This document shows positions 118-16,298 of a stretch of 64,000 nucleotides of DNA, piece by piece. The stretch is from Aliiroseovarius salicola. GTDB taxonomy: Bacteria; Pseudomonadota; Alphaproteobacteria; Rhodobacterales; Rhodobacteraceae. The position numbers and the translations under genes are program-made. The stretch's first letter is position 1, and every line of letters starts with the position of its first letter. Location of the stretch: the NCBI RefSeq assembly GCF_027891095.1, contig NZ_JAQIIO010000009.1, positions 1 through 64,000 of the forward strand, written 5' to 3'. The notes beneath the pieces were generated by a model. The model was not told the DNA's origin and made no database searches. It worked only from the letters and a program-made list of their open reading frames with translations.

Positions 118-1470
118 ATGGCGACGATTGTACATACAGAAGGTGAATCCAATACGTCAGAAGCCCGCAAGGCGTGGCTCAAGAAATCCATCGGACCAAA
201 ATCGAAGCCTCTTCTGGATCGTGATGCCGAAGTCTTTCTGCATCAAAGCCTGTCCAGCCCCTGCGTCAGCACCATTGCCAAGGCTGAAGGGATCTGGGTC
301 GAAGATCTGGATGGGCGGCGCTATATGGATTTCCACGGCAACTCGGTGCATCACATTGGTTGGGGTCATCCCAAACTGATCGCCGCGATCAAGGCGCAGT
401 TGGATGATCTGCCATTTGCGCCGCGCCGCTTTACCAATGATCCGGCGGTTGAACTGGCCGAGAAGCTCGCTGAAATTGCCCCCGGTGATCTGGGGAAGAC
501 ACTTTTCACCACAGGTGGATCGGACGCCAACGAAGTGGCGCTGAAAATTGCCCGTGCGGCGACAGGTCGGTTCAAAACTGTAAGCTTCTGGGACGCGTTC
601 CACGGGGCGGGTTTTGGGGCTGCAAGTGTAGGGGGCGAAGCAACGTTTCGCAGCCATATCGCCGGGCCGCTCTTGGCAGGGGCCGAACATGTGGCGCCCT
701 TTGCCTGCTACCGTTGTCCCTACAATCACGCGGGTCCCGATGTCTGTGGACTGGCTTGCGCAAAGATGGTGGACTTTGTGCTGGAACGAGAAGGGGACGT
801 GGCCGCTGTGATTGCCGAACCGATGCGCGCCGTGCCTTACGTGCCACCTGCCGGGTTCTGGAAAGCGGTGCGCGAGGCCTGCAATGCGCGCGGTGCCCTT
901 CTGATCATGGATGAAATTCCAACCGGGCTGGGCAAGACCGGCAAGATGTTCGCTTTTGAACATGACGACATCATCCCCGACATTGTCACCATGGGCAAAA
1001 ACCTCGGTGGCGGCGTGCTGCCGATTGCCGCATGCGTTGCGCGGCGTGACCTGGATGTGTGCGGAGACTTCGCCATCGGTCATTACACCCATGAAAAGAA
1101 CCCCGTTACCGCTCGCGCAGCCCTGACCACAATCGAGATCATCGAAGAAGAGGGTCTGGTAGATCGTTCGGCGGAACTGGGCGATTATGCCAAAGCGCGG
1201 CTTCAGGACCGTTTGGGGGATGTCCCCATCGTGGGCGACATTCGCGGACGCGGTTTGATGTTTGGGGTCGAGATTGTTCAGGACCGTACCGACAAAACCC
1301 CGGGCAACGCGCTGGCCGAACAGGTCTATTACCTCTGCCTTGAGGCGGGTCTGAGCTTTAAAATCTCGCAAGGGTGTGTGCTGACCCTGTCCCCACCCCT
1401 GACCATTTCACGCGAGGATCTGGACCGGGCGCTTGATATCGTGGTGACCGCGATAAACGAGGTGGCATGA
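118..1470 (+). CDS. pbfA: PLP-dependent (R)-1-hydroxy-2-aminoethylphosphonate ammonia-lyase-like protein (PbfA-like)
   Basis: 450-residue class-III aminotransferase fold protein. The PLP lysine is K294 in GKNLGGG, and the cofactor-binding Asp is D265 in DEIPTGLGKTG, where ordinary class-III transaminases usually read DEVQTG. The segments MDFHGNSVHHIGWGH and GHYTHEKNPV, and a Cys-rich stretch near residues 195-220, match what I recall of the PbfA family. PbfA deaminates (R)-1-hydroxy-2-aminoethylphosphonate to phosphonoacetaldehyde and ammonia; an ethanolamine-phosphate phospho-lyase-like activity is the main alternative. The start is ATG with an AGAGG Shine-Dalgarno. The stop overlaps the next start (ATGA), so it heads an operon with the permease and the flavoprotein. 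A phosphonate-monoester-hydrolase-type gene 3.5 kb away supports the reading. Family membership is likely; the exact substrate is inferred. Confidence 0.62.
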   Translation: MATIVHTEGESNTSEARKAWLKKSIGPKSKPLLDRDAEVFLHQSLSSPCVSTIAKAEGIWVEDLDGRRYMDFHGNSVHHIGWGHPKLIAAIKAQLDDLPFAPRRFTNDPAVELAEKLAEIAPGDLGKTLFTTGGSDANEVALKIARAATGRFKTVSFWDAFHGAGFGAASVGGEATFRSHIAGPLLAGAEHVAPFACYRCPYNHAGPDVCGLACAKMVDFVLEREGDVAAVIAEPMRAVPYVPPAGFWKAVREACNARGALLIMDEIPTGLGKTGKMFAFEHDDIIPDIVTMGKNLGGGVLPIAACVARRDLDVCGDFAIGHYTHEKNPVTARAALTTIEIIEEEGLVDRSAELGDYAKARLQDRLGDVPIVGDIRGRGLMFGVEIVQDRTDKTPGNALAEQVYYLCLEAGLSFKISQGCVLTLSPPLTISREDLDRALDIVVTAINEVA

Positions 1471-2306
1471 CCCCCGCCATCGGCCTTATTGTCCTGACCG
1501 CCGCCCTTTTGCACGCGCTGTGGAATGCATTGGTGAAAGGGTCCGGTGACAAGACAGTTATGTTGGGCTGCATCGCGCTGGGGCATGTCTTTCCAGGGCT
1601 GGTGATGGCGGGGCTGTCGCCCTTGCCGGATCTCGCGTCCGTGCCGTTCATGATCGCTTCGATCATGGTGCATTGGGTTTATTTCTACCTGCTCAACACG
1701 GCCTACCGGTTGGGAGATCTCAGCCTCATTTACCCAATCTCGCGCGGGCTCGCCCCTGTTCTGGTGGCGTTTGGTGCGCAGTTTTGGGTGGGCGAGAGCC
1801 TTCCAGTGTTTGCTTGGTTCGGCATCTTCTGCGTATCTGCCGGGATCATGATTTTATCCCGTTCCGCCTTTACTGGTGCATTGCCCGCCAACGCCTTGCT
1901 GGCGGCACTGGGGATTGGTGTGATCGTGGCGAGTTATACCCTGATTGATGGGATGGGCGTTCGTCTGTCGGGCCATGCAATGAGCTATATCGGCTGGCTC
2001 TTCACCGCCAAGCTGGTGATCGTCTTTTACGTGTTCCCGACACGGTGGGAGAGGGTGCGCGCCATGCCGACCCGGCTGCTGGTCATGGGTATGTGCGGAG
2101 GGCTGATTTCTGGCGCGGCCTATGCGCTTGTGCTTTACGCCAAATCCATCGCACCGCTGGGAATGGTTTCGGCCCTCCGGGAAACCTCGGTTATCTTTGC
2201 CGCATTGATTGGTGTGGTCTGGTTCGGCGAAGGTCCCAAGACACAGAGATTGTTGTCAGCGGTTGTGGTCGGGGCAGGGATCGCAGCGATTGCAGTGACC
2301 CGGTAG
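1467..2306 (+). CDS. EamA/DMT-superfamily permease
   Basis: 279 residues, almost entirely hydrophobic, with about ten predicted membrane helices in two five-helix halves typical of EamA/RhaT transporters. A conserved EamA-type segment near the end of the first half reads YRLGDLSLIYPISRG. The start overlaps the lyase stop (ATGA) and the stop is 11 bp before the flavoprotein start, so the three genes are co-transcribed. Members of this superfamily move small organic metabolites in either direction. From context it could import an aminophosphonate or phosphoester, or export a product. The substrate cannot be read from the sequence. Confidence 0.85.
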   Translation: MTPAIGLIVLTAALLHALWNALVKGSGDKTVMLGCIALGHVFPGLVMAGLSPLPDLASVPFMIASIMVHWVYFYLLNTAYRLGDLSLIYPISRGLAPVLVAFGAQFWVGESLPVFAWFGIFCVSAGIMILSRSAFTGALPANALLAALGIGVIVASYTLIDGMGVRLSGHAMSYIGWLFTAKLVIVFYVFPTRWERVRAMPTRLLVMGMCGGLISGAAYALVLYAKSIAPLGMVSALRETSVIFAALIGVVWFGEGPKTQRLLSAVVVGAGIAAIAVTR

Positions 2307-2317
2307 AGGAGAGGCAA

Positions 2318-3829
2318 ATGAAACCTTTGGACGGGCAGAAGTTTGACGTCGCCATTATTGGCGCGGGGATCAACGGAGCTTCTACAGCTCAGCACCTGAC
2401 TGCCGCCGGATACAGTGTTCTGGTGGTTGATCAGGATGATTTTTCAAACGGGGCCAGCAGCCGTTCAAGCCGCCTCCTGCATTGCGGTTTGCGTCACCTT
2501 GCCGATGGCACAAGTGTCGGAAAGATGCTGTTGCGACCAGACAGGTTTGTGCGATCAATGGGTACAGTTCGGGCTGACATGATCGCCCGTGATGAAATCG
2601 CGCGGACGATCCCCGAACGGGTGAACCCGATCAACTTTGCATTGCCGATCTATAAAGACGATCCCTATGCCCCATGGCAGCTTGATGCAGCCTTTGCGCT
2701 CCTGCGCATGACCAGCCCCAAAGGTGAAAGCCTCGACTATCGCCGCTACAAACCGGATCAGTTTGACCAAGTGCCAATTGCCCCACGGCTTCGGGATCCC
2801 GACAAACTGCAAGCTGTGGCCGTGTTTCGAGAGTTCATTTTCGACTGGCCTGAGCGGATTGCACTTGATGCCCTGTTTGATGCGCGTCGGATGGGGGCGG
2901 AGGTGCACAATTATATGAAGGTCGAAGAGCTGACATCAAATGAGGATGATGGCTGGGATCTGCGCCTCAATCCTACCCGCCGAGAGGGTCAGCCCTTTTG
3001 GGTCAGCGCCCGGATGGTGCTCAATCTTGCTGGTGCCTGGGTCGATCTGGTGAACGCCCAAACCGGGAATAGCGCGCCTCGAAAGTGCCAGGGGATCAAG
3101 GGCATTCATATTGCAGTGCAATTACCCCCCGAGTTTCGGGATTGGGGGGTGTTCACCTATAACAGCCTTGGCGAGCCACTCTACTGCCTGCCTTGGCGTG
3201 GGTATCACTATGTCGGTTTGACGCGCACGAAATTTTTCGGGGATGCAACAGGTGTTCACGCGACCGATCAGGAAATTGACTGGATGTTGGGGGAAACAAA
3301 CCGATGCCTTCCGTCCCTGAGCCTCACGCGGAAAGACGTACTTTACAGCTGGGCCGGGGTGAATCCGCTGACTTTTGATAAAGAGCAGGATCTGGGCAGC
3401 CGCGAGATCAAAATCCATGATCTCGCCTCGGATGGAATGAAAGGCATGTTCACCCTAACTGGCGGTCCGGTTGTGACCCATCGCCGTGTGGCTCATCGGT
3501 TTGTGGACCGAATTCGGCCCATCCTGCCCCCGTCGCTCGCACCCAAAGAGATCCGCTATACATCCGCTGAGATCACCAATTCTAAAGGTGCAGTTTCATC
3601 TGAGGCGATCGCAGACAGCGCACGAACTGAAAACCCTGAAAGCCTCGCCGATCTGATGATGCGCCGACTAGGGCTTGGTTGGGAGGCGGATCAGGGGCTG
3701 GCCGCTGCAGAGCAAGTCGCACAGGTGGCGGCCCCTCATATGGGTTGGTCCGACAAAGACATAGAAAACGAATTACATGCGTATCAGGTTCATCTTCAAC
3801 GGGACCGGAGAAAGCCTTCAATCGAGTGA
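2318..3829 (+). CDS. GlpD-like FAD-dependent oxidoreductase
   Basis: 503 residues, the size of aerobic glycerol-3-phosphate dehydrogenase. The N-terminal dinucleotide fold reads VAIIGAGINGAS (about residues 10-21), followed by the GlpD-like SSRSSRLLHCGLRHL. The ATG follows an AGGAGAGG Shine-Dalgarno directly after the permease stop, so longer upstream readings are rejected. An oddity lies near residues 382-389, where GlpD has GGKxTTYR and this protein has GGPVVTHR. The loss of the lysine and tyrosine suggests a substrate other than plain glycerol 3-phosphate. Given the neighbouring lyase and hydrolase, oxidation of a phosphonate- or phosphoester-derived alcohol or amine is plausible but unproven. 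It is convergent with the dehydrogenase downstream, with only 5 bp between stops. Confidence 0.7.
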   Translation: MKPLDGQKFDVAIIGAGINGASTAQHLTAAGYSVLVVDQDDFSNGASSRSSRLLHCGLRHLADGTSVGKMLLRPDRFVRSMGTVRADMIARDEIARTIPERVNPINFALPIYKDDPYAPWQLDAAFALLRMTSPKGESLDYRRYKPDQFDQVPIAPRLRDPDKLQAVAVFREFIFDWPERIALDALFDARRMGAEVHNYMKVEELTSNEDDGWDLRLNPTRREGQPFWVSARMVLNLAGAWVDLVNAQTGNSAPRKCQGIKGIHIAVQLPPEFRDWGVFTYNSLGEPLYCLPWRGYHYVGLTRTKFFGDATGVHATDQEIDWMLGETNRCLPSLSLTRKDVLYSWAGVNPLTFDKEQDLGSREIKIHDLASDGMKGMFTLTGGPVVTHRRVAHRFVDRIRPILPPSLAPKEIRYTSAEITNSKGAVSSEAIADSARTENPESLADLMMRRLGLGWEADQGLAAAEQVAQVAAPHMGWSDKDIENELHAYQVHLQRDRRKPSIE

Positions 3830-3834
3830 CCGGA

Positions 3835-4848
3835 TCACTCGTCGAAAACCACCCCCTTTGTCTGGACGCGAAGGCGTGGGTCTGCTGATTTTACCAGCAC
3901 ATCACGTCCGTCCAGAAGCTCCTGACAGCGCTCCAGGGTCTCCTGTTCCAGCCGCTCCATGGCGTCATGGGTATAGAAGGTCAGATGCGGCGAGAGGATT
4001 ACATTCGGGAGGTCAAAAAGCTCACTCATCGGATGACCTGTCAGTGACAATGGTTCTTGGCTAAACACATCCAGCCCCAACCCGGCAATCCATCCTTCAC
4101 GCATGGCGCACACCATTGCTTCTTCATCAATGATCGCCCCACGGGCAGCGTTGATCAGGATGGCGGAGGATTTCATGAGCTTGAGCTCGCGTTCCCCGAT
4201 CATCCGGTGGGTCTCATTATTCAGAACGCTATGCACGCTGACGAAATCGCTTTCGGTCAGCAGCGCATCGAGCGTGTCGCATTTCTCGACACCAATCGCG
4301 CGCATCTCCTCTTCCGGCGTGTGGGGGCTATAGGCGATGACGCGGGCGCGAAATCCCTGTCCGGCCATGCGCGCCATGGATCGCCCGATTTTGCCCAAAC
4401 CGATGATGCCGAGCGTCTTTCCGGCGATATCCGACCCCAGCCATTGTGGTTCGGGCCAGGCCCAGCCCTCTCGGTGCATTTGGTTGTTAAGGGCGGGGAG
4501 TTTCTTGGTCAGCGCAATCAGCAGAGCGAAAGCACCTTCTGCCACAGTCTCTTCGGCATATTCCGGGATATTGACGACGGTGACGCCGTGCTCCACTGCG
4601 GCCGGGATGTCGATGGCATCGATGCCGACACCATATTTCACAATCCCGCGCAGCTTGGGGGCTGCCTCAATGACCCGGCGTGTGATGGGTGTGTAGCACA
4701 TGAGCAAAAGATCCGTGTCACGGATCTCGGAAATAAGCCGCTCTTCATCCACTCCGTCTGGCAGCAGGACAAGTTCGTGGCCCGCTTCGAGCAGGGCTGC
4801 GTCCACTAATGGTGTCTGCAACTCTTGGTCCGTTCTTAAAATTTTCAT
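3835..4848 (-). CDS. D-isomer-specific 2-hydroxyacid dehydrogenase (PGDH-like)
   Basis: 337 residues with the two-domain NAD-dependent D-2-hydroxyacid dehydrogenase layout. The Rossmann motif is GLGKIG (about 152-157). The catalytic Arg is in NAARGAIIDEEA, a Glu follows, and the His is in SPHLTFYTHDAMERL. It is closest in style to 3-phosphoglycerate dehydrogenase or C-terminal-binding-protein-like members without an ACT domain. The ATG follows a GGGGAG Shine-Dalgarno. It lies 105 bp after the sulfatase on the same strand, probably in one transcript. It could oxidise a 2-hydroxy acid produced in the pathway. The known phosphite dehydrogenase PtxD has a different sequence signature. Confidence 0.8.
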   Translation of the reverse strand: MKILRTDQELQTPLVDAALLEAGHELVLLPDGVDEERLISEIRDTDLLLMCYTPITRRVIEAAPKLRGIVKYGVGIDAIDIPAAVEHGVTVVNIPEYAEETVAEGAFALLIALTKKLPALNNQMHREGWAWPEPQWLGSDIAGKTLGIIGLGKIGRSMARMAGQGFRARVIAYSPHTPEEEMRAIGVEKCDTLDALLTESDFVSVHSVLNNETHRMIGERELKLMKSSAILINAARGAIIDEEAMVCAMREGWIAGLGLDVFSQEPLSLTGHPMSELFDLPNVILSPHLTFYTHDAMERLEQETLERCQELLDGRDVLVKSADPRLRVQTKGVVFDE

Positions 4849-4953
4849 GCTGCTCCCCCGCCGACCTGTTCATTTGACAGTGCGGGAAGGTAGGTGGCGG
4901 ATACAAATCTGTTTTCGCAATTGATCTATAAGATTGGCCTATGGGCTTTGTCC

Positions 4954-6492
4954 CTACCGGGTCCGGGAGAATTTTTGCGGACCAGATTTGGTGATCATGT
5001 CCATCGATAATGTGTGATCCATATTTTGCATTCGGTGGCGCAGCATCTGTCGTGACAATCGAGCAAGATCGCTGACATAATCCGGGTTCTCCGCCACATT
5101 CTCCATCTCACCCGCGCCATGGTGATCAAACAAAACCGGGTCCAAATGGTCGGAGGCAAACTCAACCAGTGTAAATCGCCCATCGCGCAATATCGCGAGG
5201 TTGGAACTGCTGACCGAACAGCCCAGAGCGGTCTGCCATGTCGTTGGTGAGGCGGGATCTGCAAAATCCAATTCCGAGAATGAGTAACGACGCCAAGTGT
5301 CAGGAGCGGGACCAGTCAGAAGGGGCAAAAGCGACTTCCCATCCATCGAATTGGGAACATCCTGTCCAACCCATTCAAGGATCGTTGGAACGACGTCAAT
5401 GGATTCAGTGGGCGCCGAAACCCGAATGCCCGCGCGCTCTTTATTGTCTGGCAGACGAATAATCAGCGGAGTGTGATAGGCGGCATCATGGAACGTCATC
5501 TTGCCCCACAAATGATGATCTCCAAGCATTTCGCCATGGTCCGCCGTGACAATCAGAAGCGTGTCATCATATTGCCCGCTGTCTTTCAGAAACGAGATAA
5601 CCCGGCCAATGTGATGATCCACTTCTGTGGCCAGCCCCAAATAAACAGCGCGTAAAGTCTGAATGTTGCCATCTGTTGCGTCGAGGTCTGGAAAGCCTTC
5701 GACAAAATCTGCGGGCGTTGTGGCGCTCTGCGCCGGGGGCAAAAACGGGTGCAATGTCGCGTCTTGGCCTGCGGTGTCCTTGCGTGTGGGAAGCGGAAGG
5801 TCCACTGGGTCATACATGTCATTGTAGGGAGCAGGGGCCACCAATGGCGGATGTGGTCGGATATAGGTCAGATGGGCAAACCAGCCATCCCGGGCATAGG
5901 CGTCCATTGTGTCCAGAAAGCGACCGGTCAGAAATGCCGTGTCGCTGTGTTCTGCGCGGTAAAGGGCTGGGTCATTCAGCTTGGGGGTGCCCCCGGATGG
6001 AGAGACGGGTTTGTAAACATCGAGGTAGTTTTCAAATTTGTAGCCATTGCGGATCAGATGAGACTGCCAAGGCAGGGATTGCTCCAGCCGCATCTCGACC
6101 ATCTCATGGAACCCGGTCATCGGGTATTCATAGCTGCGCACCGCTGGATCATTGGGGTGATGCGCCCGCGGATCACCTGACGTGTCGGTATAGCCGAAAA
6201 GCATTGGCAGATAGCCTGCTTTACGCATTTCGCTGGCGATGTTGGGGGTGTCGTGGCGCAAGGGGGTTCCATTGCGCACCGACCGATGGTTCATCGAATA
6301 TTGCCCGGTCAGGATAGACGCGCGCGATGGTCCGCAGGGGTTGGTGACTGAGAAGTGCCGCTCGAACGTCACGGCGTCTTGCATCAGGCCGCGTAGATTG
6401 GGAAATTCCACATGTTCCGCCAATGCTCCGGTCAGACAATCGGCCCGCAGCTGGTCGATAATGATGAAGAGTACGTTTTTCCGGTTGCGCAT
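4954..6492 (-). CDS. Phosphonate monoester hydrolase/arylsulfatase-family enzyme
   Basis: 512-residue alkaline-phosphatase-superfamily protein. The metal-site Asp is D13 (LFIIIDQLRADC). The nucleophile motif CGPSR has C53, which this family matures to formylglycine. Other matches to rhizobial phosphonate monoester hydrolase are the MNHRSV, THPNDP-like, YIRPHPPLVAPAPYNDMY and TADHGEMLGDHHLWGK segments. Family members hydrolyse phosphonate monoesters and phosphodiesters, with promiscuous sulfatase activity. The start is set at an ATG preceded by a G-rich Shine-Dalgarno at the point where homology begins; in-frame sequence further upstream looks non-coding. No formylglycine-generating enzyme is in the window. 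It is divergent from deoR and is followed by the 2-hydroxyacid dehydrogenase. Confidence 0.8.
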   Translation of the reverse strand: MRNRKNVLFIIIDQLRADCLTGALAEHVEFPNLRGLMQDAVTFERHFSVTNPCGPSRASILTGQYSMNHRSVRNGTPLRHDTPNIASEMRKAGYLPMLFGYTDTSGDPRAHHPNDPAVRSYEYPMTGFHEMVEMRLEQSLPWQSHLIRNGYKFENYLDVYKPVSPSGGTPKLNDPALYRAEHSDTAFLTGRFLDTMDAYARDGWFAHLTYIRPHPPLVAPAPYNDMYDPVDLPLPTRKDTAGQDATLHPFLPPAQSATTPADFVEGFPDLDATDGNIQTLRAVYLGLATEVDHHIGRVISFLKDSGQYDDTLLIVTADHGEMLGDHHLWGKMTFHDAAYHTPLIIRLPDNKERAGIRVSAPTESIDVVPTILEWVGQDVPNSMDGKSLLPLLTGPAPDTWRRYSFSELDFADPASPTTWQTALGCSVSSSNLAILRDGRFTLVEFASDHLDPVLFDHHGAGEMENVAENPDYVSDLARLSRQMLRHRMQNMDHTLSMDMITKSGPQKFSRTR

Positions 6493-6670
6493 CGGTCCCC
6501 CCCATGGCTTTCCCCCACATAGGCAAATATAATGGTTTCGGTCCAGAGCATTTGTGGGTTTGTGACGGAAATACTGCTCCCGATCCTGCAAAATTCGTGC
6601 TTTATGGTGTTTTTGGTTGCAATTGTGTGGGTAGGTGTGGGTTAATTGTGGGGAACTGACCGAAAGAAAG
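6493..6670. promoter_or_regulatory. Divergent control region between hydrolase and deoR
   Basis: 178 bp separate two divergent starts, so both promoters and any DeoR operator must lie here. It contains repeated TTGTGGG/TGTGGGT elements (about 6553-6560, 6624-6632, 6636-6644 and 6648-6654). The repeats resemble the clustered T/G-rich repeats seen at DeoR-family operators, but I cannot assign an exact operator. Confidence 0.4.
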
Positions 6671-7480
6671 ATGTCAATGCCCAAAGCCACCAACCACTCG
6701 CATCGGGAACTTGAACTGCTCGCAGCTCTGCGGAGGCTGGGCGGAACAGCACGTTCTTCCGAGCTTGCAAAATATCTCGACGTTTCAGAGGAGACTGTGC
6801 GCCGAGGGATCAAGTCACTTGCCAAATCCGGCACGGTCGAGCGGGTGCATGGCGGGGCTTACCTGGTCGGCGAAATGGGTGATCCAAGTTTCTTTTCCCG
6901 CATGGCGCGCAACCCGGATGGGAAACGCCAGATCGCAAAGGCGATCGCCAAGCAGGTATATGAAGGCATGACCATTTTTCTGGATGTGGGAACAACCACG
7001 GCGTTTGTCGCAGAGCGATTGCGCAAACTTTCTGGGCTGACGGTTGTAACCAACTCGGTGGGTGTAGCGCAGACTATGGTTGGCACCAGTGACAACCGGG
7101 TGCATTTCCTGGGTGGCGAAATGAAAAGCGATGAGCGCGGAACCTTTGGATCGGTGACGGAACGGCAGGCACGTCGCTTCGCGTTTGATATGGCCGTGCT
7201 GAGTGCAGATGGGCTGACCAATACACGCGGGTTCCTGTTTGCTAATCCTGTTGAAGCCTCTTTGTCCGAAGTTGTGGCGGACTGTGCTGACAAGGTGGTG
7301 GTCGGTCTGGATCATCACAAATATGGTGCGAAAGCACCGCACTGCGGGTTGGCCCCTAACCGAGTGGATTTGCTGGTTGCTGATGAAGCGCCTGATGCGG
7401 CGATGACCCAAGCGTTAGAAAGCTGGGGGGTCGATGTTGTTCTGGCTCCAGCGGGCAAGAAGAAGATATCTCATGACTGA
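6671..7480 (+). CDS. DeoR/GlpR-family transcriptional regulator
   Basis: 269 residues. The N-terminal winged helix-turn-helix (about 10-65) contains SELAKYLDVSEETVRRGIKSL, and the C-terminal DeoR sensor domain contains the FLDVGTT phosphosugar-isomerase-like loop (about 95-115). This family usually senses phosphorylated metabolites and represses adjacent operons, fitting control of the divergent hydrolase operon. I chose ATG 6671, behind a GAAAGAAAG purine tract, over an upstream GTG at 6635. The 3' end overlaps the phosphatase gene by 8 bp, so it is the first gene of a three-gene operon. Confidence 0.85.
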   Translation: MSMPKATNHSHRELELLAALRRLGGTARSSELAKYLDVSEETVRRGIKSLAKSGTVERVHGGAYLVGEMGDPSFFSRMARNPDGKRQIAKAIAKQVYEGMTIFLDVGTTTAFVAERLRKLSGLTVVTNSVGVAQTMVGTSDNRVHFLGGEMKSDERGTFGSVTERQARRFAFDMAVLSADGLTNTRGFLFANPVEASLSEVVADCADKVVVGLDHHKYGAKAPHCGLAPNRVDLLVADEAPDAAMTQALESWGVDVVLAPAGKKKISHD

Positions 7481-8246
7481 ACTGCCCCACCTTATCAAAC
7501 ACGCTGAAGCCATGGCGGAAATCGCGGCACGAACGGCGATGTCCTATTTCAGGGGTGCGCTTGGCATTGAGATTAAAGCAGATGAAAGCCCGGTCACGCA
7601 GGCAGACAAGGCAGTTGAAGCCGAGCTGCGCGCCTATCTCGAGGCCATGTTTCCCGAGCATGGGATCTTTGGTGAAGAAGAAGGAATGGACGACAAGGAC
7701 AGTCCCCATCTGTGGGTAATCGATCCGATTGACGGCACACGTTCCTTCCTGTCAGGGCACCCGCTTTTTGGATTTTTGCTTGCGCATCTGATTGATGGGA
7801 AGCCAGAGATCGGGGTGATTGGCATGCCGGCGCTGGGTGAGATTATGATCGGTGTACGTGGACATGGTGCACAGTTGAATGGGGCTCCGATCCGGGCCTC
7901 AGATCAAACCAATCTGGATCAGGCAGTTCTTTATATCAATGAGGGCGAAAAGCTCTATAGCGACCACCCGGGAGTTTTTGACCGCCTGATGCAGTCAGGT
8001 CAGACCCGCCGCATGGCCTATGATTGCTACCCCCATGCGCTTTTGGCGATGGGGCATGTGGATGCGGTGATTGACTATGACTTGCAGCCTTATGATTTTC
8101 TCGCTGTATCGGTGGTGATCGAAGCCGCAGGTGGGGTGATGACCGACTGGTCAGGTGACCCACTGACAATGGAGAGCGACGGGCGGGTCATCTCCGCCGC
8201 AACCCCCGAATTGCACGAACAAATGCTGAATATGGTGAAGAACTGA
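7473..8246 (+). CDS. Inositol-monophosphatase-family phosphatase (HisN/SuhB-like)
   Basis: 257 residues with the Mg-binding motifs of the IMPase family: GEEEG (about residue 69), WVIDPIDGTRSF (about 85-96) and a C-terminal Asp in the YDFLAVSVVIEAAGG segment. Family members dephosphorylate inositol phosphate, histidinol phosphate, fructose bisphosphate or nucleotide phosphates. In this context it would release phosphate from a phosphorylated intermediate. The ATG lies inside the end of deoR, and its stop overlaps the Na+/Pi gene start (TGATG), so translation is coupled. The substrate is unknown. Confidence 0.8.
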   Translation: MTELPHLIKHAEAMAEIAARTAMSYFRGALGIEIKADESPVTQADKAVEAELRAYLEAMFPEHGIFGEEEGMDDKDSPHLWVIDPIDGTRSFLSGHPLFGFLLAHLIDGKPEIGVIGMPALGEIMIGVRGHGAQLNGAPIRASDQTNLDQAVLYINEGEKLYSDHPGVFDRLMQSGQTRRMAYDCYPHALLAMGHVDAVIDYDLQPYDFLAVSVVIEAAGGVMTDWSGDPLTMESDGRVISAATPELHEQMLNMVKN

Positions 8247-9928
8247 TGGCCATCCTGAGTTTCCTGATAAGTCTTGCCGGGGCAACCATGCTATTGCTTT
8301 TTGCCGTGAGAATGGTGCGCACCGGGATTGAACGCAGCTTTGGGGCGTCGTTTCAACGGATGATGACCGCCAAAGGTGGGCCGCTCTACAATTCGGCCCT
8401 TGGTGTGATGCTTGCGATGGTGCTGCAAAGTTCAGCCGCCGTGGCACTGCTGGCCACAGGATTTGTTGCGGGAGGGTACCTGCAATTTCCTGCGGCGCTG
8501 GCCATCGTGCTGGGGGGAGACCTTGGTTCTGCCCTGATCATCCAGATTTTGTCCTTCCAGCTTGATTGGTTGGTGCCGGTGCTGCTGGCCGTCGGCGGAT
8601 GGCTGTTCGTCAAGGTCGAAAGCCGTTCCTGGCGACAGGCTGGACGGATCCTGATGGGGGTGGCCTTTATCCTGATCTCGCTTCGGTTCCTGCGCGAAGC
8701 AATGGATCCGATCCGTGACAGCGTATTTCTGCCTGCAATTGCCGAGTATCTGGCGCGGGATTATCTCACTGCATTTATCGTCGGTGCGGCGCTCGCCTTT
8801 GTGATGCACTCTTCTGTTGCTGCAATCCTGATGTGTGTCACGCTGGTGCAAATCGACGCCATCCCCTTTGCCGCAGGCATTTCTCTGGTTCTGGGTGCCA
8901 ACCTTGGGTCCGCCCTGATCCCGATCTGGTTGACAAGAGGTATGGATGTCGTTGCGCGAAGAGTGCCCTTCGCCAACTTTTTCTTGCGTGGTGTCTGGGC
9001 CGTGACTGCGTTGTTCGTCGGCAATGTATTCCTGAGATCGGGGGCCATCAATGTGCCTGAAACCGGTCAGATGCTGGTGGTGGCGCATATCTTGTTCAAT
9101 GCTGTATTGGTGGTGATTGCCATGCCTTTTGGCTCGCTCATTGCCTCCAGCATCGTGCGATTCATGCCGGAACGCAGTGATCTGTCCTTGAAAAACGGGA
9201 TTGATATTCGCCCTTCATCTGCACTGGATCCAAACGATATCGGGCTTCCGGCACAGGCAATCGCCAGTCTGAAAAAAGAGTTGTTGCGCATGTCGGAACT
9301 GGTCGAAGTGATGTTCCGCCCATCGTTGGATCTCTACCGCGATGGGGACCCGGTCAAGATCCGGGCCATTCAGGATATAGATCACGACGTGAATGAGTGT
9401 CTGGCGGGCATCCGCGATTTCGTTGCTTCGCTTCCCGGGAAAAACGAATTTGGGAAGGAAAATGCGAAAACCGCGCGTGATCTGATGGAGTATGCGATAC
9501 GTCTGGAAACGGCAGGGGATGTGGTGGCAAAGCGGCTATGTGTTCTGGCGGGTGAGATGCACGAAAAACACTCCCGGTTTTCCAAAGAAGGCTGGAACGA
9601 GTTGATCCGTATGCATGAATGCATTGCGGCCAACTTGAAACTCGCCTCCAATGTTCTCGTGTCGGACGATCTCGAAAGTGCGCGTATTCTGAGCCTTGAA
9701 AAGACCGAGTTGAAACAAGCGGAGCGAAAGAGCCGAAAGCGCCACCTTAAGCGTTTGCAAGACGGTATGGCAGAAAGTTTCGAGACATCGGACATTCATC
9801 TGGAAACATTGAGGGCCCTACGGGAGTTCAACAGCCATATTGCCGCTATCGCATACCCTCTTCTCTACAAGCATGGTCAGCTTCTGGAGACACGGTTGAT
9901 AGAAGATATGCAGGAAGCCAAAAGCTAA
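8246..9928 (+). CDS. Na+/phosphate cotransporter family protein with PhoU-like tail
   Basis: 560 residues. Two inverted NptA repeats carry the hallmark segments QSSAAVALLATGF (about 55-67) and MHSSVAAILM (about 188-197). A cytosolic helical domain of PhoU type fills roughly residues 330-560. Bacterial NptA/YjbB-type proteins can import or, as shown for YjbB, export phosphate. Being last in the deoR operon beside a phosphatase, it may discharge phosphate liberated during catabolism; this is an inference. The start overlaps the preceding stop. The gene ends only 47 bp before the truncated aldehyde dehydrogenase. Confidence 0.85.
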   Translation: MAILSFLISLAGATMLLLFAVRMVRTGIERSFGASFQRMMTAKGGPLYNSALGVMLAMVLQSSAAVALLATGFVAGGYLQFPAALAIVLGGDLGSALIIQILSFQLDWLVPVLLAVGGWLFVKVESRSWRQAGRILMGVAFILISLRFLREAMDPIRDSVFLPAIAEYLARDYLTAFIVGAALAFVMHSSVAAILMCVTLVQIDAIPFAAGISLVLGANLGSALIPIWLTRGMDVVARRVPFANFFLRGVWAVTALFVGNVFLRSGAINVPETGQMLVVAHILFNAVLVVIAMPFGSLIASSIVRFMPERSDLSLKNGIDIRPSSALDPNDIGLPAQAIASLKKELLRMSELVEVMFRPSLDLYRDGDPVKIRAIQDIDHDVNECLAGIRDFVASLPGKNEFGKENAKTARDLMEYAIRLETAGDVVAKRLCVLAGEMHEKHSRFSKEGWNELIRMHECIAANLKLASNVLVSDDLESARILSLEKTELKQAERKSRKRHLKRLQDGMAESFETSDIHLETLRALREFNSHIAAIAYPLLYKHGQLLETRLIEDMQEAKS

Positions 9929-9975: not shown

Positions 9976-10287
9976 TTGCGGGATGAAAGCTTTGGGCCTG
10001 TGGTGGGCATCATGAAGGTCTCGTCCGACGAAGAGGCGATTGCCTTGATGAATGACAGTGAATTTGGCCTGACCGCGAGCCTCTGGACCAAGGACCTCGA
10101 CCGTGCCGCCCGTGTGGGAGATCAGGTTGAAACCGGGACGGTCTTTATGAACCGGGCGGACTATCTGGATCCGGGTCTTTGTTGGACCGGCTGCAAAAAC
10201 ACCGGGCGCGGTGGCGGGCTGTCCGTGATTGGCTTCCACAACCTGACCCGCCCGAAAAGCTATCATATGAAAAAGGTGACATCATGA
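9976..10287 (+). pseudogene. 3' remnant of an aldehyde dehydrogenase gene
   Basis: About 103 codons encode only the C-terminal end of an NAD(P)-dependent aldehyde dehydrogenase. RDESFGPVVGIMKV, GLTASLWTKDLDRAARV, GTVFMNRADYLDP and CKNTGRGGGLSVIGF are typical of the last quarter of the family. The first roughly 350-400 residues, including the catalytic Cys and Glu, are missing. In-frame sequence just upstream (9931-9975) has no convincing dehydrogenase character. The end overlaps the alcohol dehydrogenase start (ATGA), showing the original gene was the first cistron of that operon. It is probably beheaded by recombination when the upstream block arrived. Confidence 0.85.
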
Positions 10288-11732: not shown

Positions 11733-12866
11733 ATGACAACCAACAAGAACCTTACGCGTCGTACGGTGCTCAAGGGTGCAACCACGATAGGGGCCGCTGC
11801 ACTGGCTTCGCCGCTTTATGTGAAAAGCGCCCTGGCCTCGTCGGGTGAGATCAATATCCTGATGTGGTCGGACTATCTGCCGCCCGAGTTCATTGCAGGT
11901 TTCGAAGCGGAAACCGGCATCAAGGTGAACTATACCGGTATTGGTTCGAACGAAGAGATCATCAACAAGATGAAAGCCACCAAGGGTCAGGGCTTTGACA
12001 TTGTGTCGCCGACCAACAACCGGTCGCTGCAATGGGGTCCGCTGGAACTCTTGAAACCGTTTGACCTGTCGAAGGTGAACATTGACGCCGTGAACCCGGC
12101 GATGTCGAAAATCGGCACCGATGCATGGGACTTTGGTGGCAAGGGCGCCCATTGGCTGCCGCATATCTGGGGCACCGAAGGGATCGCCTATCGCACTGAC
12201 AAATGGCTGCCGGCCGGTGACGCACCAAGCTACGGTGACGTATGGTCGGAAGAAAATGCCGGTAAGACCATGGGCCGTGCCCACTCAATGATGCTGGGCG
12301 CCGGTCTTTACATGGAAGCGTCGGGCGAGATGGAACCAGGTTCGATCTGGGCCGCCTACGAAGATGAAGACACCATGCGGAAAGTGTGGGGTCAGGTGGC
12401 TGACTGGACCATTGAACGTAAGTCGCGCATCAAGCTGATCTGGAACGATGCTGACACCCAGAAGAACGGCCTTCTGAATGAAGGTGTTGTGGTTGGCCAG
12501 ACCTGGGACGGTCCGCCGCTGGCACTGAAATCGGCAGGTGAGCCGGTGCACTATCAGGCGCCTGTCGAAGGTGCGATGGCTTGGGTCGACGGCATCTCGA
12601 TGCCAATCGGGGCCAAGAACGAAGAGCAGGTCTATGCCTTCGTTGAATATGCCTATCGTAAAGAGCCCGCCGGTAAGGCGATTGATAGCCATGGCTATAA
12701 CTCGCCGGTGCTGGGCGCAGACACCTATTCGGGTGACACCTATAAGAAGAACTTTGCCGAGGCCTACCCGGGTGATAGCCTGGCGAACCTCAACCCGTGG
12801 CCTGCTGAGGCCCCGTGGTATGCGGACATCCGTACGGAGTTCGTCAACAAGTTCAAAAGCGCCTAA
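11733..12866 (+). CDS. Polyamine-type ABC transporter substrate-binding protein
   Basis: 377-residue PotD/PotF-like periplasmic binding protein. The N-terminus carries a twin-arginine signal (TRRTVLKGA, residues 8-16) followed by an Ala-rich hydrophobic stretch, so Tat export is likely. The mature domain begins near INILMWSDYLPPEFI, typical of spermidine/putrescine binders. The start ATG follows a CGGGAG Shine-Dalgarno. It is the first gene of a four-gene importer operon, followed by a strong intercistronic hairpin. The ligand may be a polyamine or another cationic amine; it cannot be set by eye. Confidence 0.85.
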   Translation: MTTNKNLTRRTVLKGATTIGAAALASPLYVKSALASSGEINILMWSDYLPPEFIAGFEAETGIKVNYTGIGSNEEIINKMKATKGQGFDIVSPTNNRSLQWGPLELLKPFDLSKVNIDAVNPAMSKIGTDAWDFGGKGAHWLPHIWGTEGIAYRTDKWLPAGDAPSYGDVWSEENAGKTMGRAHSMMLGAGLYMEASGEMEPGSIWAAYEDEDTMRKVWGQVADWTIERKSRIKLIWNDADTQKNGLLNEGVVVGQTWDGPPLALKSAGEPVHYQAPVEGAMAWVDGISMPIGAKNEEQVYAFVEYAYRKEPAGKAIDSHGYNSPVLGADTYSGDTYKKNFAEAYPGDSLANLNPWPAEAPWYADIRTEFVNKFKSA

Positions 12867-12879
12867 TTCGCGCTTTCCT

Positions 12880-12906
12880 GTGGCCCTGCCCAACGGGCAG
12901 GGCCAC
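12880..12906 (+). terminator. Intercistronic stem-loop after the binding-protein gene
   Basis: A perfect 12-bp inverted repeat (12880-12891 with 12895-12906, loop AAC) starts 13 bp after the binding-protein stop. It lacks an immediate T-run. Such hairpins between a binding-protein gene and the rest of an ABC operon commonly stabilise the upstream message and reduce downstream expression. Confidence 0.75.
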
Positions 12907-12988
12907 CCAACCGTTTTCTGCAGGCATTTCACGGTGCCCTCTTTAGTGAGGGGACGGGGAACGTGCGTGCCATTGAAGGAGAAGCCAT

Positions 12989-14101
12989 ATGAGTGCCGGA
13001 GTAGGCGTCGATCTGGAAAACCTATGGATCCGCTTTGGAGATTTCGTCGCCGTGCGCGACGCCAATGTGAACATCAAAGGGGGCGATTTCTTTTCGTTCC
13101 TTGGGCCGTCGGGCTGTGGCAAGACCACCATCCTGCGGGCCGTGTCAGGGTTTCTGGACCCCAGCGAAGGCAATGTGCTGATCGGTGGGAACAACATGCA
13201 GGGCATCGGGCCGAACAAACGCCCCACCGCCTTGATCTTTCAAAATCTCGCGCTTTTCCCGCTGATGAAGGTCTGGGAAAACATCACCTTTTCGATGGAA
13301 ATTCAGGGCGCCAGCGCCCGTGAACGGCGCAAACGTGCGGATGAGCTTCTCGATATGATCGCTTTGCCGGGGCAGGGGGACAAGCTGCCTTCGGAATTGT
13401 CGGGTGGTCAGAAGCAACGTGTGGCCATCGCGCGGGCCCTTTGTGCCGAGCCTGATGTGCTGCTGCTTGACGAACCGCTTTCCGCACTTGACCTCAAGCT
13501 GCGCCAGCACATGCGCACCGAGCTGCGTGAAATCCAGCAGCGCGTTGGCATTACCTTCATCTACATCACCCACGACCAGGGCGAAGCCTTGACCATGTCG
13601 GATGACATTGCGGTGATGCGCGCAGGCGTAATTGATCAGATCGGTGATGGTAAAACCATCTATAACGATCCATCGACCGCTTTTGCGGCGAGCTTTGTCG
13701 GCGAAAACAATGTGTTCCGCGGCAAGGTGAGCAAGATCATCGGCAACGAAGCCCTGATCTCGACCAACCGGTCAGGTGAATTACATGCGCGCATTTCGAC
13801 CGCAAACCAAGGCAAGTTGCAGGTTGGCGATGATGCAATGATGTTCATCCGTCCCGAAGCTCTGTCTCTTGCCCCCACGGGCACGCAGGGTGACCATTAT
13901 GTGACTGCGCAGGTGAATCATGAGGAGTTTGAGGGCAACACCTATAACATCTTCACCGAAGGTGACGGGGGTAAAGAGATCAAAATCTCAATCCCGAACC
14001 TTGGCCAAAGCTTTGACGACCACACCGGTCAGCCCATCACCTTGGAATATGACGTGTCCAACGCTGTGGTGGTGCCTGCCGGCGAACTGGCAAGCGAGTA
14101 A
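12989..14101 (+). CDS. PotA-type ABC transporter ATP-binding protein
   Basis: 370 residues. Walker A GPSGCGKTT is near residues 38-46, the signature LSGGQKQR near 136, and Walker B LLLDEPLSALD near 157. The switch His is in YITHDQGEALTMSD. A C-terminal TOBE domain of polyamine and iron importers covers about 280-365. The ATG has a GAAGGAGAA Shine-Dalgarno. It energises uptake through the two permeases that follow at 11 bp and then a 4-bp overlap. Confidence 0.9.
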   Translation: MSAGVGVDLENLWIRFGDFVAVRDANVNIKGGDFFSFLGPSGCGKTTILRAVSGFLDPSEGNVLIGGNNMQGIGPNKRPTALIFQNLALFPLMKVWENITFSMEIQGASARERRKRADELLDMIALPGQGDKLPSELSGGQKQRVAIARALCAEPDVLLLDEPLSALDLKLRQHMRTELREIQQRVGITFIYITHDQGEALTMSDDIAVMRAGVIDQIGDGKTIYNDPSTAFAASFVGENNVFRGKVSKIIGNEALISTNRSGELHARISTANQGKLQVGDDAMMFIRPEALSLAPTGTQGDHYVTAQVNHEEFEGNTYNIFTEGDGGKEIKISIPNLGQSFDDHTGQPITLEYDVSNAVVVPAGELASE

Positions 14102-14112
14102 GGGGGAGTATC

Positions 14113-15033
14113 ATGCCTGGCTTCCTCAAGGAGTTTTTTAATCGCAACGGCACGCTGATGGGGTCGATCATGTTGGGGCTTGTCCTCTTCTGGGTCATTG
14201 GCCTGATCATTCTGCCCCAGCTGTCGATGCTTGATTTCTCGTTCCGGCCAAACCTGCCGCCCCCCGAAATCGGCGGGCCAAAGGATGTCTATACGCTGGA
14301 GAACTACAAATACCTGATCTATGGCCCGGAAGGCGGGTCGCAGGATTATAACGCAGTTGACCTTGCCGTGTTCTACCGCACCCTGGTGGCGGCGGTTCTG
14401 GTGACACTGTTCAACTTGGCTTTCTGCTATCCGATTGCCTACTACTTGGGTCAAACCAAGGGCAATCACATCCGCATCTTTGCTCTGATGCTGATCATCC
14501 CCTACTGGATCAATGAGATCCTGCGCGCCTTTGCGCTGCGGATCATCTTTGGCGAGACCGGGGTGTTCAATACGCTTCTCGTGGGCAGCGGTATCTTTGA
14601 TACGCCATTTGACTTCATCCGCAACGATGTCGCGCTTTATGCGGGTCTGGGTTATGCCTATATCCTGTTGATGATCTTCCCGATCTACAACGTGATCGAA
14701 AGTCTTGATCACAACCAGATCGAGGCGGCCCGTGACCTTGGTGCCCCGTGGTGGCGGATTCATTGGCGGGTGGTGATCCCTTATGCCAAACCGGGCATCA
14801 GCTCGGGCTGTACGATGGTGTTCATGCTGTCGGCCGGTGCGCTGGCGGCGCCGCAGATCCTTGGCGGACCATCGTCGCTCTGGTTTACCCAGCTTATTTA
14901 TCAGCAGTTCAATGACAACTCCGATTGGCCACAAGGCGCGGCCTACGCGATCGTGCTGCTTGTCACCTGTATCCTGCTGGTTCTGGCTGTGATGCGCCTG
15001 TTCAAAGTGAACATGGGGGATATCGGCAAATGA
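14113..15033 (+). CDS. PotB-type ABC transporter permease
   Basis: 306 residues with six or so membrane helices. The first helix is at about residues 17-37, followed by a long periplasmic loop. The cytoplasmic EAA loop (IEAARDLGAPWWRIHWRVV) lies near residues 203-221. It couples to the ATPase encoded immediately upstream. GGGGGAG precedes the ATG. It ends in a 4-bp ATGA overlap with the second permease. Confidence 0.9.
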   Translation: MPGFLKEFFNRNGTLMGSIMLGLVLFWVIGLIILPQLSMLDFSFRPNLPPPEIGGPKDVYTLENYKYLIYGPEGGSQDYNAVDLAVFYRTLVAAVLVTLFNLAFCYPIAYYLGQTKGNHIRIFALMLIIPYWINEILRAFALRIIFGETGVFNTLLVGSGIFDTPFDFIRNDVALYAGLGYAYILLMIFPIYNVIESLDHNQIEAARDLGAPWWRIHWRVVIPYAKPGISSGCTMVFMLSAGALAAPQILGGPSSLWFTQLIYQQFNDNSDWPQGAAYAIVLLVTCILLVLAVMRLFKVNMGDIGK

Positions 15034-16298
15034 ACCCTGATAAAATCATTCGCTATTCGATCTGGATCTATCTGGCGATCTTCTTTGCCTATCTATTAGG
15101 TCCGCTGATCATCATGTCGGCCACCGCGTTCAACTCGCCGGGGTTCCCGCGTATGACTCCGTGGGAGTGTCTGACCTTCGACTGGTTCGGCGCATTGTTC
15201 CGGGATGAACGTATCCTCAACGGGATCTGGAACTCGGTTCTGGTTGGAATCGGTACAGTAATCATGTCGGTATCGATGGGTCTGGCGGGCGCGCTGATGC
15301 TCACCCAGATCTGGCCCAAGCTTCGGGCGACCTATTACACGATCATCATTGCCCCGATCCTTATTCCGGGCGTGGTTTTGGGTATCTCAACCCTCGTGTT
15401 CTGGGATCGTATCAACCGGATGCTGGGGCTGGGGGCGGACAGCTTCCTGTCAAACGGGTTGTTTCTGACCATCATCGGTCAGTCGACCTTCATTGCCAGC
15501 TACTGCATGCTGGTACTGGTGGCCCGTCTGCAGCGTTATGACATGACGCTGACAGAGGCTGCGCTGGACTTGGGTGCCACCCATGCACAGGCGTTCCGTA
15601 AAGTGCTCATGCCGTTCATGTTCCCGGCCATTGCCTCGGCGGGTGTGCTGGCGTTCTTGGCCTCGTTCGAGAACTACAACACCACCACGTTCACCTTCGG
15701 TGAATACCCGACGCTGACCATCGAACTGGCGCAGAAAGTGCGTTACGGGATCACCCCGGCGATCTCGGCTCTGGCCTTCATGATTGTGGCGCTGACCGTG
15801 TTCTTTGCACTGGTCAACGAGGCAAATATCAAGCGCAAGGCGTTAATTGCCGAAGCGCGCAAGGATGCCACAGTTGGTGAATTGGCCGGTAAGGTCGAGG
15901 TGCCCGGTTTCCTCAGCCGCAACCCGGCTGCCATTGCACTGATCGTTCTGTTGATCGGAACGGCCACTGTTGTGGGGTCTGCCATGGCCTATAGCCCGGA
16001 TCAATGTATCGCGGGTGTGCAGGAGCAGAAGCGTCTGGAAACCGAACGTCGCATTCAAGAGCTGCGCGATCAGCGTGCGAAAGATGCGGCGGAGAAGTCC
16101 CAGCAAGAAGGTGGGGCGGAAACGCAATCCACGCCAAAACCGTCGAACAACTCGGGATTTGGCAGCGTCTTCGCTCCGGGCACGCTTGAAGGTTCCGACA
16201 GCGACGCCGGTGATGCGGCCCCCACAGATAGTGGTGGCAACAATTCCGGGTTCGGTAATGTGTTTGATCCGAATGCCTTGCAAAACGACGACAACTGA
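15030..16298 (+). CDS. PotC-type ABC transporter permease with unusual C-terminal extension
   Basis: 422 residues, whereas PotC permeases are usually about 265-290. Residues 1-275 are a normal permease, with an EAA loop containing LTEAALDLGATHAQAFRKV. An extra hydrophobic segment (about 300-320) follows, then a charged Arg/Lys/Glu-rich helix (about 330-360). The tail is Ser/Gly/Asn/Asp-rich and carries two near-copies of NNSGFGSVF / NNSGFGNVF. The tail has no evident frameshift and ends at a strong terminator, so it looks genuine. Its role is unknown; it may be an extracytoplasmic tether. Confidence 0.9.
   Translation: MNPDKIIRYSIWIYLAIFFAYLLGPLIIMSATAFNSPGFPRMTPWECLTFDWFGALFRDERILNGIWNSVLVGIGTVIMSVSMGLAGALMLTQIWPKLRATYYTIIIAPILIPGVVLGISTLVFWDRINRMLGLGADSFLSNGLFLTIIGQSTFIASYCMLVLVARLQRYDMTLTEAALDLGATHAQAFRKVLMPFMFPAIASAGVLAFLASFENYNTTTFTFGEYPTLTIELAQKVRYGITPAISALAFMIVALTVFFALVNEANIKRKALIAEARKDATVGELAGKVEVPGFLSRNPAAIALIVLLIGTATVVGSAMAYSPDQCIAGVQEQKRLETERRIQELRDQRAKDAAEKSQQEGGAETQSTPKPSNNSGFGSVFAPGTLEGSDSDAGDAAPTDSGGNNSGFGNVFDPNALQNDDN

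Follow-up and report, generated by a model that had tools for sequence, protein, structure and literature searches.

Gene content and organization of the pbfA locus

The window analyzed in this study, a stretch of 64,000 nucleotides from Aliiroseovarius salicola (contig NZ_JAQIIO010000009.1, positions 1 to 64,000), carries in its first 10 kb eight genes that include pbfA, a gene of aminophosphonate degradation. A sequence-only reading had previously reported eight open reading frames (ORFs) at 118-9928 and had proposed that they form a phosphonate block of three units; all of them are present, and the ORF list and profile scans confirmed their positions, families and orientations (Table 1). 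The first rightward unit includes pbfA, an eamA-type permease gene and a gene encoding a flavoprotein related to GlpD, pbfA and eamA overlapping by 4 bp and being followed by an 11-bp spacer. The leftward unit includes the gene of a phosphonate monoester hydrolase (PMH) and, after a spacer of 105 bp, a gene of the 2-hydroxyacid dehydrogenase family. The second rightward unit encodes a DeoR-family regulator, an inositol monophosphatase (IMPase)-family phosphatase and a Na/Pi carrier. The first base of the window is also the first base of contig C32 (120,373 bases, in a genome of 3.58 Mb assembled in 32 contigs); therefore, what limits the block on its left side is the assembly rather than the end of the cluster. 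This block is probably part of a gene island that provides this marine bacterium with phosphorus from natural compounds carrying a carbon-phosphorus (C-P) bond.

Table 1. Features of the pbfA locus and of its right-hand neighbourhood, with the basis of each assignment
Feature	Position	Strand	Basis
pbfA	118..1470	+	NF049939 equivalog, 677.7 bits (cut-off 525)
EamA-family permease	1467..2306	+	nearest model TIGR03340 (phosphonate-utilisation associated, phn_DUF6), under cut-off
GlpD-like flavoprotein, separate phosphonate-linked clade, no published name found	2318..3829	+	GlpD/GlpO fold, 13-member clade
PbfF, predicted NAD-dependent 1-hydroxy-2-aminoethylphosphonate racemase	3835..4848	-	PF02826 (pfam02826)
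Phosphonate monoester hydrolase / phosphodiesterase (PMH), alkaline phosphatase superfamily, CGPSR motif	4954..6492	-	4upk_A match
Triple direct repeat TGTGG, 10-11 bp spacing, candidate DeoR operator	6626..6651	+	between PMH and DeoR
DeoR/GlpR-family regulator	6671..7480	+	PF00455 + PF08220
IMPase-family phosphatase, HisN-like	7473..8246	+	TIGR02067, 243.7 bits, under HisN cut-off 275.15
Na/Pi carrier with PhoU domain, probable phosphate exporter (direction inferred)	8246..9928	+	PF02690 + PF01895
Polyamine-type ABC transporter (binding protein, ATPase, two permeases), possible ester importer	11733..16298	+	homology

The start of the PMH gene was set at the first Met within the stretch that aligns to solved PMHs, and those of the DeoR and IMPase genes at ATGs that we chose as the first ones 3′ of the listed starts fitting the family matches.

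PbfA, PbfF and the recurrence of their neighbours

The first gene exceeds the cut-off of the PbfA equivalog by about 150 bits, which led us to reject an assignment to an ordinary omega-transaminase; as the sequence-only reading had expected, it encodes a true PbfA-type lyase, for which activity on the R enantiomer of 1-hydroxy-2-aminoethylphosphonate (HAEP) is predicted. It is 86-91% identical to the pbfA genes located 3′ of phnA-phnY in other loci (e.g. L006, L047, L069, L077, L078, L083 and L084). The location in a phnWX or phnWAY cluster that is expected of PbfA is found here through the phnW gene and the phnA start carried by the far end of C32, provided that the two ends of this contig are joined, as we infer.

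The 2-hydroxyacid dehydrogenase gene, which the sequence-only reading had taken as a plain dehydrogenase and left unplaced, is best read as encoding the HAEP racemase PbfF, racemisation being a predicted activity. In a 2025 publication (PMC12366243), which studied the protein of M. plurifarium, a pfam02826 protein encoded in clusters that always include pbfA is shown to be an NAD-dependent HAEP racemase. Among 394 genomes of the family, which represent 393 genera, PbfF orthologs (E 1e-70) are found in seven genomes that all encode PbfA, six of them within 6 kb of pbfA (p 8e-8; all Fisher tests reported here ignore phylogeny, though nearly every genome is from another genus). An ordinary 2-hydroxyacid dehydrogenase was rejected on the basis of this complete co-occurrence. 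Furthermore, the protein is 56% identical to the one encoded next to pbfA on a Shinella zoogloeoides plasmid, a species listed for PbfF in PMC12366243, the correspondence being at the species level only.

PbfA was detected above its cut-off in 41 of the 394 genomes. The 40 other PbfA neighbourhoods encode PhnW (n = 33), PhnY (n = 32), PhnA (n = 31), AepX (n = 15), PbfF (n = 5), an IMPase (n = 3) and the GlpD-like flavoprotein (n = 2), with an identity floor of 42% for the census; eight of them are shorter than 20 kb, so that absences make these counts lower bounds there. An EamA gene is found near pbfA in 17 of the 40 neighbourhoods, at 60 bp or less in 16 of these 17, and a Na/Pi carrier, of the type found here or of the L006 type, in 13, in agreement with the earlier inclusion of the phosphate carrier in the set. 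PMH is encoded within 10 kb of pbfA in seven of them (47-62% identity). Among individual loci, compared after discarding matches below 40% identity and short inner matches, L078 unites almost all of the set in a single run and L077 another large part: L078 carries phnW-phnA-phnY-pbfA-eamA-GlpD-like-IMPase-PMH and L077 phnW-phnA-phnY-pbfA-eamA-GlpD-like-pbfF-DeoR-IMPase, without PMH in the stretch read, both with a transporter of 2-aminoethylphosphonate (AEP). The grouping exceeds chance, since genes for EamA, PMH, the Na/Pi carrier, DeoR and IMPase are found repeatedly in the vicinity of pbfA elsewhere. The outcome that the sequence-only reading had named as refuting it, an ordinary omega-transaminase as first gene and neighbours without any association with phosphonate genes in other genomes, did not appear.

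The other end of the contig and the C-P cleaving step

The sequence-only reading had found no C-P cleaving route. Part of this route appears at the far end of C32, which carries successively genes encoding a DeoR regulator, an 820-residue flavoprotein, a second DeoR, an AEP transporter, a LysR regulator, PhnW and residues 1-128 of PhnA, where the contig stops. The AEP binding protein scores above the TIGR03261 cut-off (510.2 versus 392.75 bits) and is accompanied by the corresponding ATPase and permease. Many relatives show the gene order phnW-phnA-phnY-pbfA. The phnY-pbfA gap, taken between match ends, spans 85-117 bp in half of the loci (18 of 36); 11 loci have a shorter gap and seven a longer one. 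The 117 bp that precede pbfA include a hairpin-like stretch (GTGAGGCC...GGGTCTCAC) common to the phnY-pbfA gap of a genome of the same genus (G373). This synteny and the common hairpin suggest that phnY, together with the 3′ end of phnA, lies in the assembly gap and that C32 would be a circular replicon interrupted there.

Contig C31 of the same genome ends at the same point in a second phnA start (92% DNA identity over 407 bp). The missing stretch between phnA and pbfA is therefore probably a repeat present in two copies, which would explain why the assembly failed at phnA. PhnX and C-P lyase were rejected as the C-P cleaving step, since the genome encodes no PhnX above cut-off and no PhnJ. 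The first 6 kb of C31 (L057:1-6023) carry a second phosphonate system that encodes a phn-type LysR (below cut-off), a transporter of the PhnD/PhnC/PhnE/PhnE type and the phnA start cut by the contig end; it includes an iron alcohol dehydrogenase above the TIGR03405 cut-off and is possibly devoted to 2-hydroxyethylphosphonate use. The 820-residue flavoprotein of the C32 far end (L058:5707-8169) is fused to a GcvT-like domain. Its relatives are encoded in phosphonate clusters (L077, L078, L090 and L093) and, in Ruegeria AD91A, near glyA; it is a candidate N-methyl-aminophosphonate demethylase. A perfect palindrome (CCCCCCAATTGGGGGG) is located at positions 16-31 of the window, at the contig edge and 5′ of pbfA.

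A clade of GlpD-like flavoproteins linked to pbfA

The AlphaFold model of the flavoprotein (11 sequences; mean pLDDT 79.3, pTM 0.81) matches GlpD and GlpO best, with a query TM of 0.80 to 9a53. However, the protein scores only 141.4 bits against the GlpD equivalog (cut-off 352) and exceeds no curated cut-off among the 24 families listed. It belongs to a clade of 13 members with tree support of 100/100, corresponding to 13 distinct loci. Ten of these are relatives from the scan of genome contigs, to which the window, Ruegeria THAF33 and G013 are added; L071 and L076 appear to belong to the genomes G304 and G089, respectively. The arginine of GVRPL and the lysine of GGK, which we take to hold the phosphate of glycerol-3-phosphate and for which nothing usable was found in the literature searched, are present in all 13 readable canonical GlpD sequences and are replaced by N and by P or A, respectively, in all 13 clade members; six distant relatives keep the arginine and lack the lysine. 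These canonical sequences are what remained of 22 picked as the longest ORF after nine in a wrong frame (L022, L024, L028, L029, L030, L032, L034, L036 and L042) were left uncounted; L030, L032 and L042 were also included in the tree, where they form a remote group separate from the GlpD-like clade. A true GlpD is thus rejected by cut-off, clade and residues: judged from its sequence, the protein is GlpD-like in fold, not GlpD by membership, and is not a glycerol-3-phosphate dehydrogenase.

The GlpD-like gene adjoins pbfA, or is separated from it only by eamA, in eight of the 13 loci (the window, L047, L069, L074, L075, L076, L077 and L078). Five of these eight also carry pbfF, none being seen in L076 and L078, and L069 stops after the GlpD-like gene. 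The loci in which the gene is away from pbfA nest within the clade; therefore, the linkage to pbfA looks ancestral. Close orthologs (at least 59% identity) are found in four of the 394 genomes, all four of which encode PbfA (p 1e-4) and three PMH. Because of this linkage, the substrate of the flavoprotein would be expected to feed HAEP or phosphonoacetaldehyde, and an alcohol and an amine both fit.

Other neighbours fix no substrate, whether those of the Zongyanglinia gene (aldolase-like and cyclodeaminase-like genes) or those of the distant relatives (amino-acid transporters and RidA). In Ruegeria THAF33 (L061:19932-32251), the GlpD-like gene is located past an IS6 transposase and beside genes of an MttB-type methyltransferase, an aminotransferase, a FAD oxidoreductase and a thiamine pyrophosphate enzyme, a setting suggestive of a pathway for methylated sulfonates or amines. 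The cluster L046/L076 (G089) has the order phnW-pbfA-eamA-GlpD-like; phnA, phnY and phnX are all missing from the 20 kb that were read.

The PMH-type hydrolase

The assignment of the hydrolase to the PMH type, already made by the sequence-only reading, is supported by its best solved match, 4upk_A (PHOSPHONATE MONOESTER HYDROLASE; E 2.6e-239), which covers residues 4-509 of 515 and which we take to come from Ruegeria (Silicibacter) pomeroyi. The protein also carries CGPSR, an instance of the motif C-x-P-S-R that presumably contains the PMH nucleophile, and thus combines a near full-length match to a solved PMH with this motif. Its sequence start (MRNRKNVLFIII), judged by eye, lacks an obvious signal peptide; therefore, this cytoplasmic-looking enzyme probably acts on a small imported ester. 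The genome encodes this Cys-type PMH and yet shows no match to a formylglycine-generating enzyme.

PMH (E 1e-100 or better) was detected in 64 of the 394 genomes, that is in 28 of the 41 with PbfA versus 36 of the 353 without. Conversely, PbfA is encoded by 28 of the 64 PMH genomes versus 13 of the 330 others (Fisher p 9e-16).

Regulator, phosphatase, carrier and right-hand neighbours

The second DeoR of the C32 far end, located directly 5′ of the AEP transporter, is 85% identical to that of the window. The TGTGG triple repeat has its only other copy before this second gene (L058:8348-8373), is absent from the 13 other loci scanned and did not arise in any of 20 versions of the window shuffled by mononucleotides. 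The two repeat regions are paralogous, and common descent may explain the shared repeat. Apart from this pattern, which was spotted by eye, the comparison of nine promoter regions retrieved one 9-mer (GGGGAACTG) common to three of them.

The IMPase has a relative (52% identity) encoded elsewhere in the genome and recurs in phosphonate clusters (L077, L078, L091, L099 and L100; 51-68% identity); the DeoR-IMPase pair recurs in L077 and in Ruegeria conchae. The carrier exceeds the cut-off of the Na/Pi symporter model NF037997 (110.1 versus 50 bits). The EamA permease reaches 144.8 of the 288.15 bits required by its nearest model, which is its sole NCBIfam match at E 0.001.

To the right of the carrier, an aldehyde dehydrogenase (ALDH) ORF (9976-10287) is a truncated remnant that matches residues 358-459 of a 460-residue ALDH (88%) and precedes an intact iron alcohol dehydrogenase gene. 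The polyamine-type transporter that follows shares 88-97% identity with one encoded divergently from the Aliiroseovarius PMH gene, and a diverged relative (40% identity for the ATPase, 42-56% for the permeases) is encoded beside the phn cluster of L078; this transporter probably belongs with the PMH module. The ten ORFs scanned at 17-64 kb all belong to common families (phosphatase, MFS, Tex, Omp85, TamB, peroxidase, NqrA, Glu/Leu-type dehydrogenase, PutA and oxoprolinase).

Proposed pathway and alternative explanations

We propose, with a probability of about 0.8, that the locus represents half of a modular island for aminophosphonate degradation, whose replicon was cut by the assembly between phnA and pbfA, and that this island combines a core with accessory steps. 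By analogy with the activities published for relatives of PbfA, PbfF, PhnWYA and PMH, the core would convert S-HAEP to R-HAEP by PbfF and R-HAEP to phosphonoacetaldehyde and ammonia by PbfA, whereas PhnW would produce phosphonoacetaldehyde from AEP; PhnY then PhnA would convert phosphonoacetaldehyde to acetate and phosphate. The hydroxylase that the sequence-only reading had thought necessary to supply PbfA is dispensable here, as PbfA and PbfF take HAEP itself. Among the accessory steps, PMH could split an imported phosphonate monoester (or phosphodiester) into an alcohol and a free phosphonate, the IMPase might trim a phosphorylated by-product, the Na/Pi carrier might export surplus phosphate and the pair of DeoR regulators might control this accessory module. 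The GlpD-like flavoprotein could oxidise a further hydroxy- or amino-phosphonate feeding the PbfA step. What the analysis establishes is the identity of the genes, their clustering and their co-occurrence.

Several observations weigh against this proposal. No recognisable phnY end is found within the 117 bp before pbfA and no PhnY ortholog is assembled in the genome, the best-scoring of 17 matches being 34% identical and none exceeding 36%. Among the 40 other PbfA neighbourhoods, phnW is missing from the stretch read in seven and the DeoR of the window type occurs in only three, with weak matches (43-45% identity). The GlpD-like gene is away from pbfA in four of its 13 loci (L061, L071, L072 and L073), L070 being a short contig that is not scorable. 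Concerning the hydrolase, the protein scores 454.8 bits against the PehA equivalog NF045661 (cut-off 900) and should not carry the name PehA. The genome has no match to the formylglycine-generating enzyme family (PF03781), which is present in four of 14 control genomes, and its matches to the sulfatase-maturase family are all under cut-off. Furthermore, 36 genomes hold PMH without PbfA, the PMH gene and pbfA are no more than 10 kb apart in just eight of the 28 genomes that have both, and in the stretches shown the PMH gene is apart from phn genes in R. conchae, Aliiroseovarius, R. pomeroyi and Ruegeria AD91A. That of Aliiroseovarius stands beside the divergent transporter, with no phn gene in the 29.5 kb shown. 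In R. conchae, PMH, DeoR and IMPase are found with an N-formylglutamate amidohydrolase, a glutamine-synthetase-like gene, an ALDH and an iron alcohol dehydrogenase, and no phn gene is annotated in the 21.5 kb shown.

The arrangements in Aliiroseovarius and R. conchae, like the PMH genomes devoid of PbfA, would also be expected if the locus consisted of two unrelated neighbours: a phosphonate unit (pbfA, eamA, the GlpD-like gene and pbfF) and an organophosphate-diester unit without any C-P role (PMH, DeoR, IMPase, carrier, ALDH remnant, iron alcohol dehydrogenase and polyamine-type transporter) that would salvage, for example, glycerophosphoethanolamine. However, PMH is within 10 kb of pbfA in the seven neighbourhoods mentioned above, IMPase and PMH are inside the phn cluster in L078, as are DeoR and IMPase in L077, and a near-copy of the DeoR gene is located 5′ of the AEP transporter of this genome; this explanation thus appears doubtful without being negligible. 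The other alternatives concern the flavoprotein. GlpD-type enzymes oxidise the hydroxyl of a small phosphorylated compound, and the GlpD-like protein could therefore be a 2-hydroxyethylphosphonate dehydrogenase that produces phosphonoacetaldehyde directly. Two publications are consistent with this role, as they report esters of 2-hydroxyethylphosphonate in marine dissolved matter (PMC5649143) and show that PbfF does not do that job (PMC12366243). However, the GlpD-like gene is tied to pbfA, whose product would be dispensable for the use of 2-hydroxyethylphosphonate, and the iron alcohol dehydrogenase of the second phosphonate system, on C31, is a better candidate, making this role unlikely.

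The sequence-only reading had suggested instead that the flavoprotein oxidises the alcohol of a glycerol-linked aminophosphonate (deacylated phosphonolipid), PMH freeing AEP or HAEP. The GlpD/GlpO fold and the presence of PMH would fit, and the loss of two basic residues, if they hold a phosphate as we assume, would suit a less charged, diester-like substrate. However, both residues that mark GlpD are lost, G013 encodes the flavoprotein, PbfA and PbfF with no PMH match at E 1e-100, L077 lacks PMH in the stretch read, and the genomes with the flavoprotein all encode PbfA (4/4) but not all PMH (3/4). As the route actually used at this locus, it is improbable, and the glycerol ester may be only one of several possible substrates, all unproven. 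The likelihoods given to the degradation island and to these three alternatives are not exclusive, because the core of the former can hold under each of the latter.

Within the aminophosphonate-degradation island that we favor, it is conceivable, although somewhat short of an even chance, that the GlpD-like clade represents a new enzyme of phosphonate breakdown, opening a further entry to PbfA and PbfF, and that the PMH clade natively releases aminophosphonates from esters in the environment, ahead of the steps of PbfF, PbfA and PhnWYA. The flavoprotein might for example oxidise a hydroxylated or N-substituted aminophosphonate, or a glycerol ester, with transfer of electrons to quinone. PMH is used as a model of catalytic promiscuity and, to our knowledge, its natural substrate is unsettled. 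Its statistical and positional link to AEP/HAEP clusters provides a concrete class of substrates to test, and the GlpD-like clade a defined candidate for another entry into a pathway that has already yielded new enzymes by gene-context reasoning. Both are relevant to the way in which marine bacteria gain phosphorus from phosphonate esters.

Comparison with known systems

The core of the pathway was already known. The literature searched, as far as its accessible parts extend, described neither a PMH module in aminophosphonate islands, nor PMH within phnW clusters, nor the GlpD-like clade. Likewise, no GlpD-like gene in a phosphonate setting was found there, including in the accessible part of PMC12366243, no search by gene name and phosphonates having been made.

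In PMC10590968, PbfB, PbfC and PbfD were compared with amine oxidoreductases (PuuB, MabO, ThiO and others). The terms "GlpD" and "glycerol-3-phosphate" do not occur in the main text of that publication, nor "glycerol-3-phosphate" in the accessible text of PMC8154272. Like the GlpD-like flavoprotein, these three proteins are DAO-superfamily FAD enzymes found in association with phosphonate clusters; it is their description only that sets the GlpD-like protein apart from them. GlpD and GlpO (glycerol-3-phosphate dehydrogenase and oxidase) have the fold and domain layout in common with it, but it differs from them by its clade, by the replacement of R by N and of K by P or A, and by its scores below cut-off.

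The PMH of the window resembles that of 4upk by a near full-length match with CGPSR. Around its homologue on the R. pomeroyi plasmid (69% identity), the 21.5 kb shown contain no annotated phn gene, whereas the PMH of the window is located in an aminophosphonate island. PMC5649143 postulates ester bonds between phosphonates and marine polysaccharides that are cut by alkaline-phosphatase-like enzymes, pointing to a PEH. The idea of ester release is thus shared with this Sulfitobacter system, but the PEH is different and the genome of A. salicola has no PhnJ match.

Finally, compared with the PhnWYA pathway with PbfA and PbfF, as described in PMC8154272 and PMC12366243, the locus has the same core genes, the same order as far as assembled, an AEP transporter and a LysR regulator. 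Unlike that system, it adds PMH, the DeoR/IMPase pair, the Na/Pi carrier and the GlpD-like flavoprotein, and its phnY is unassembled.

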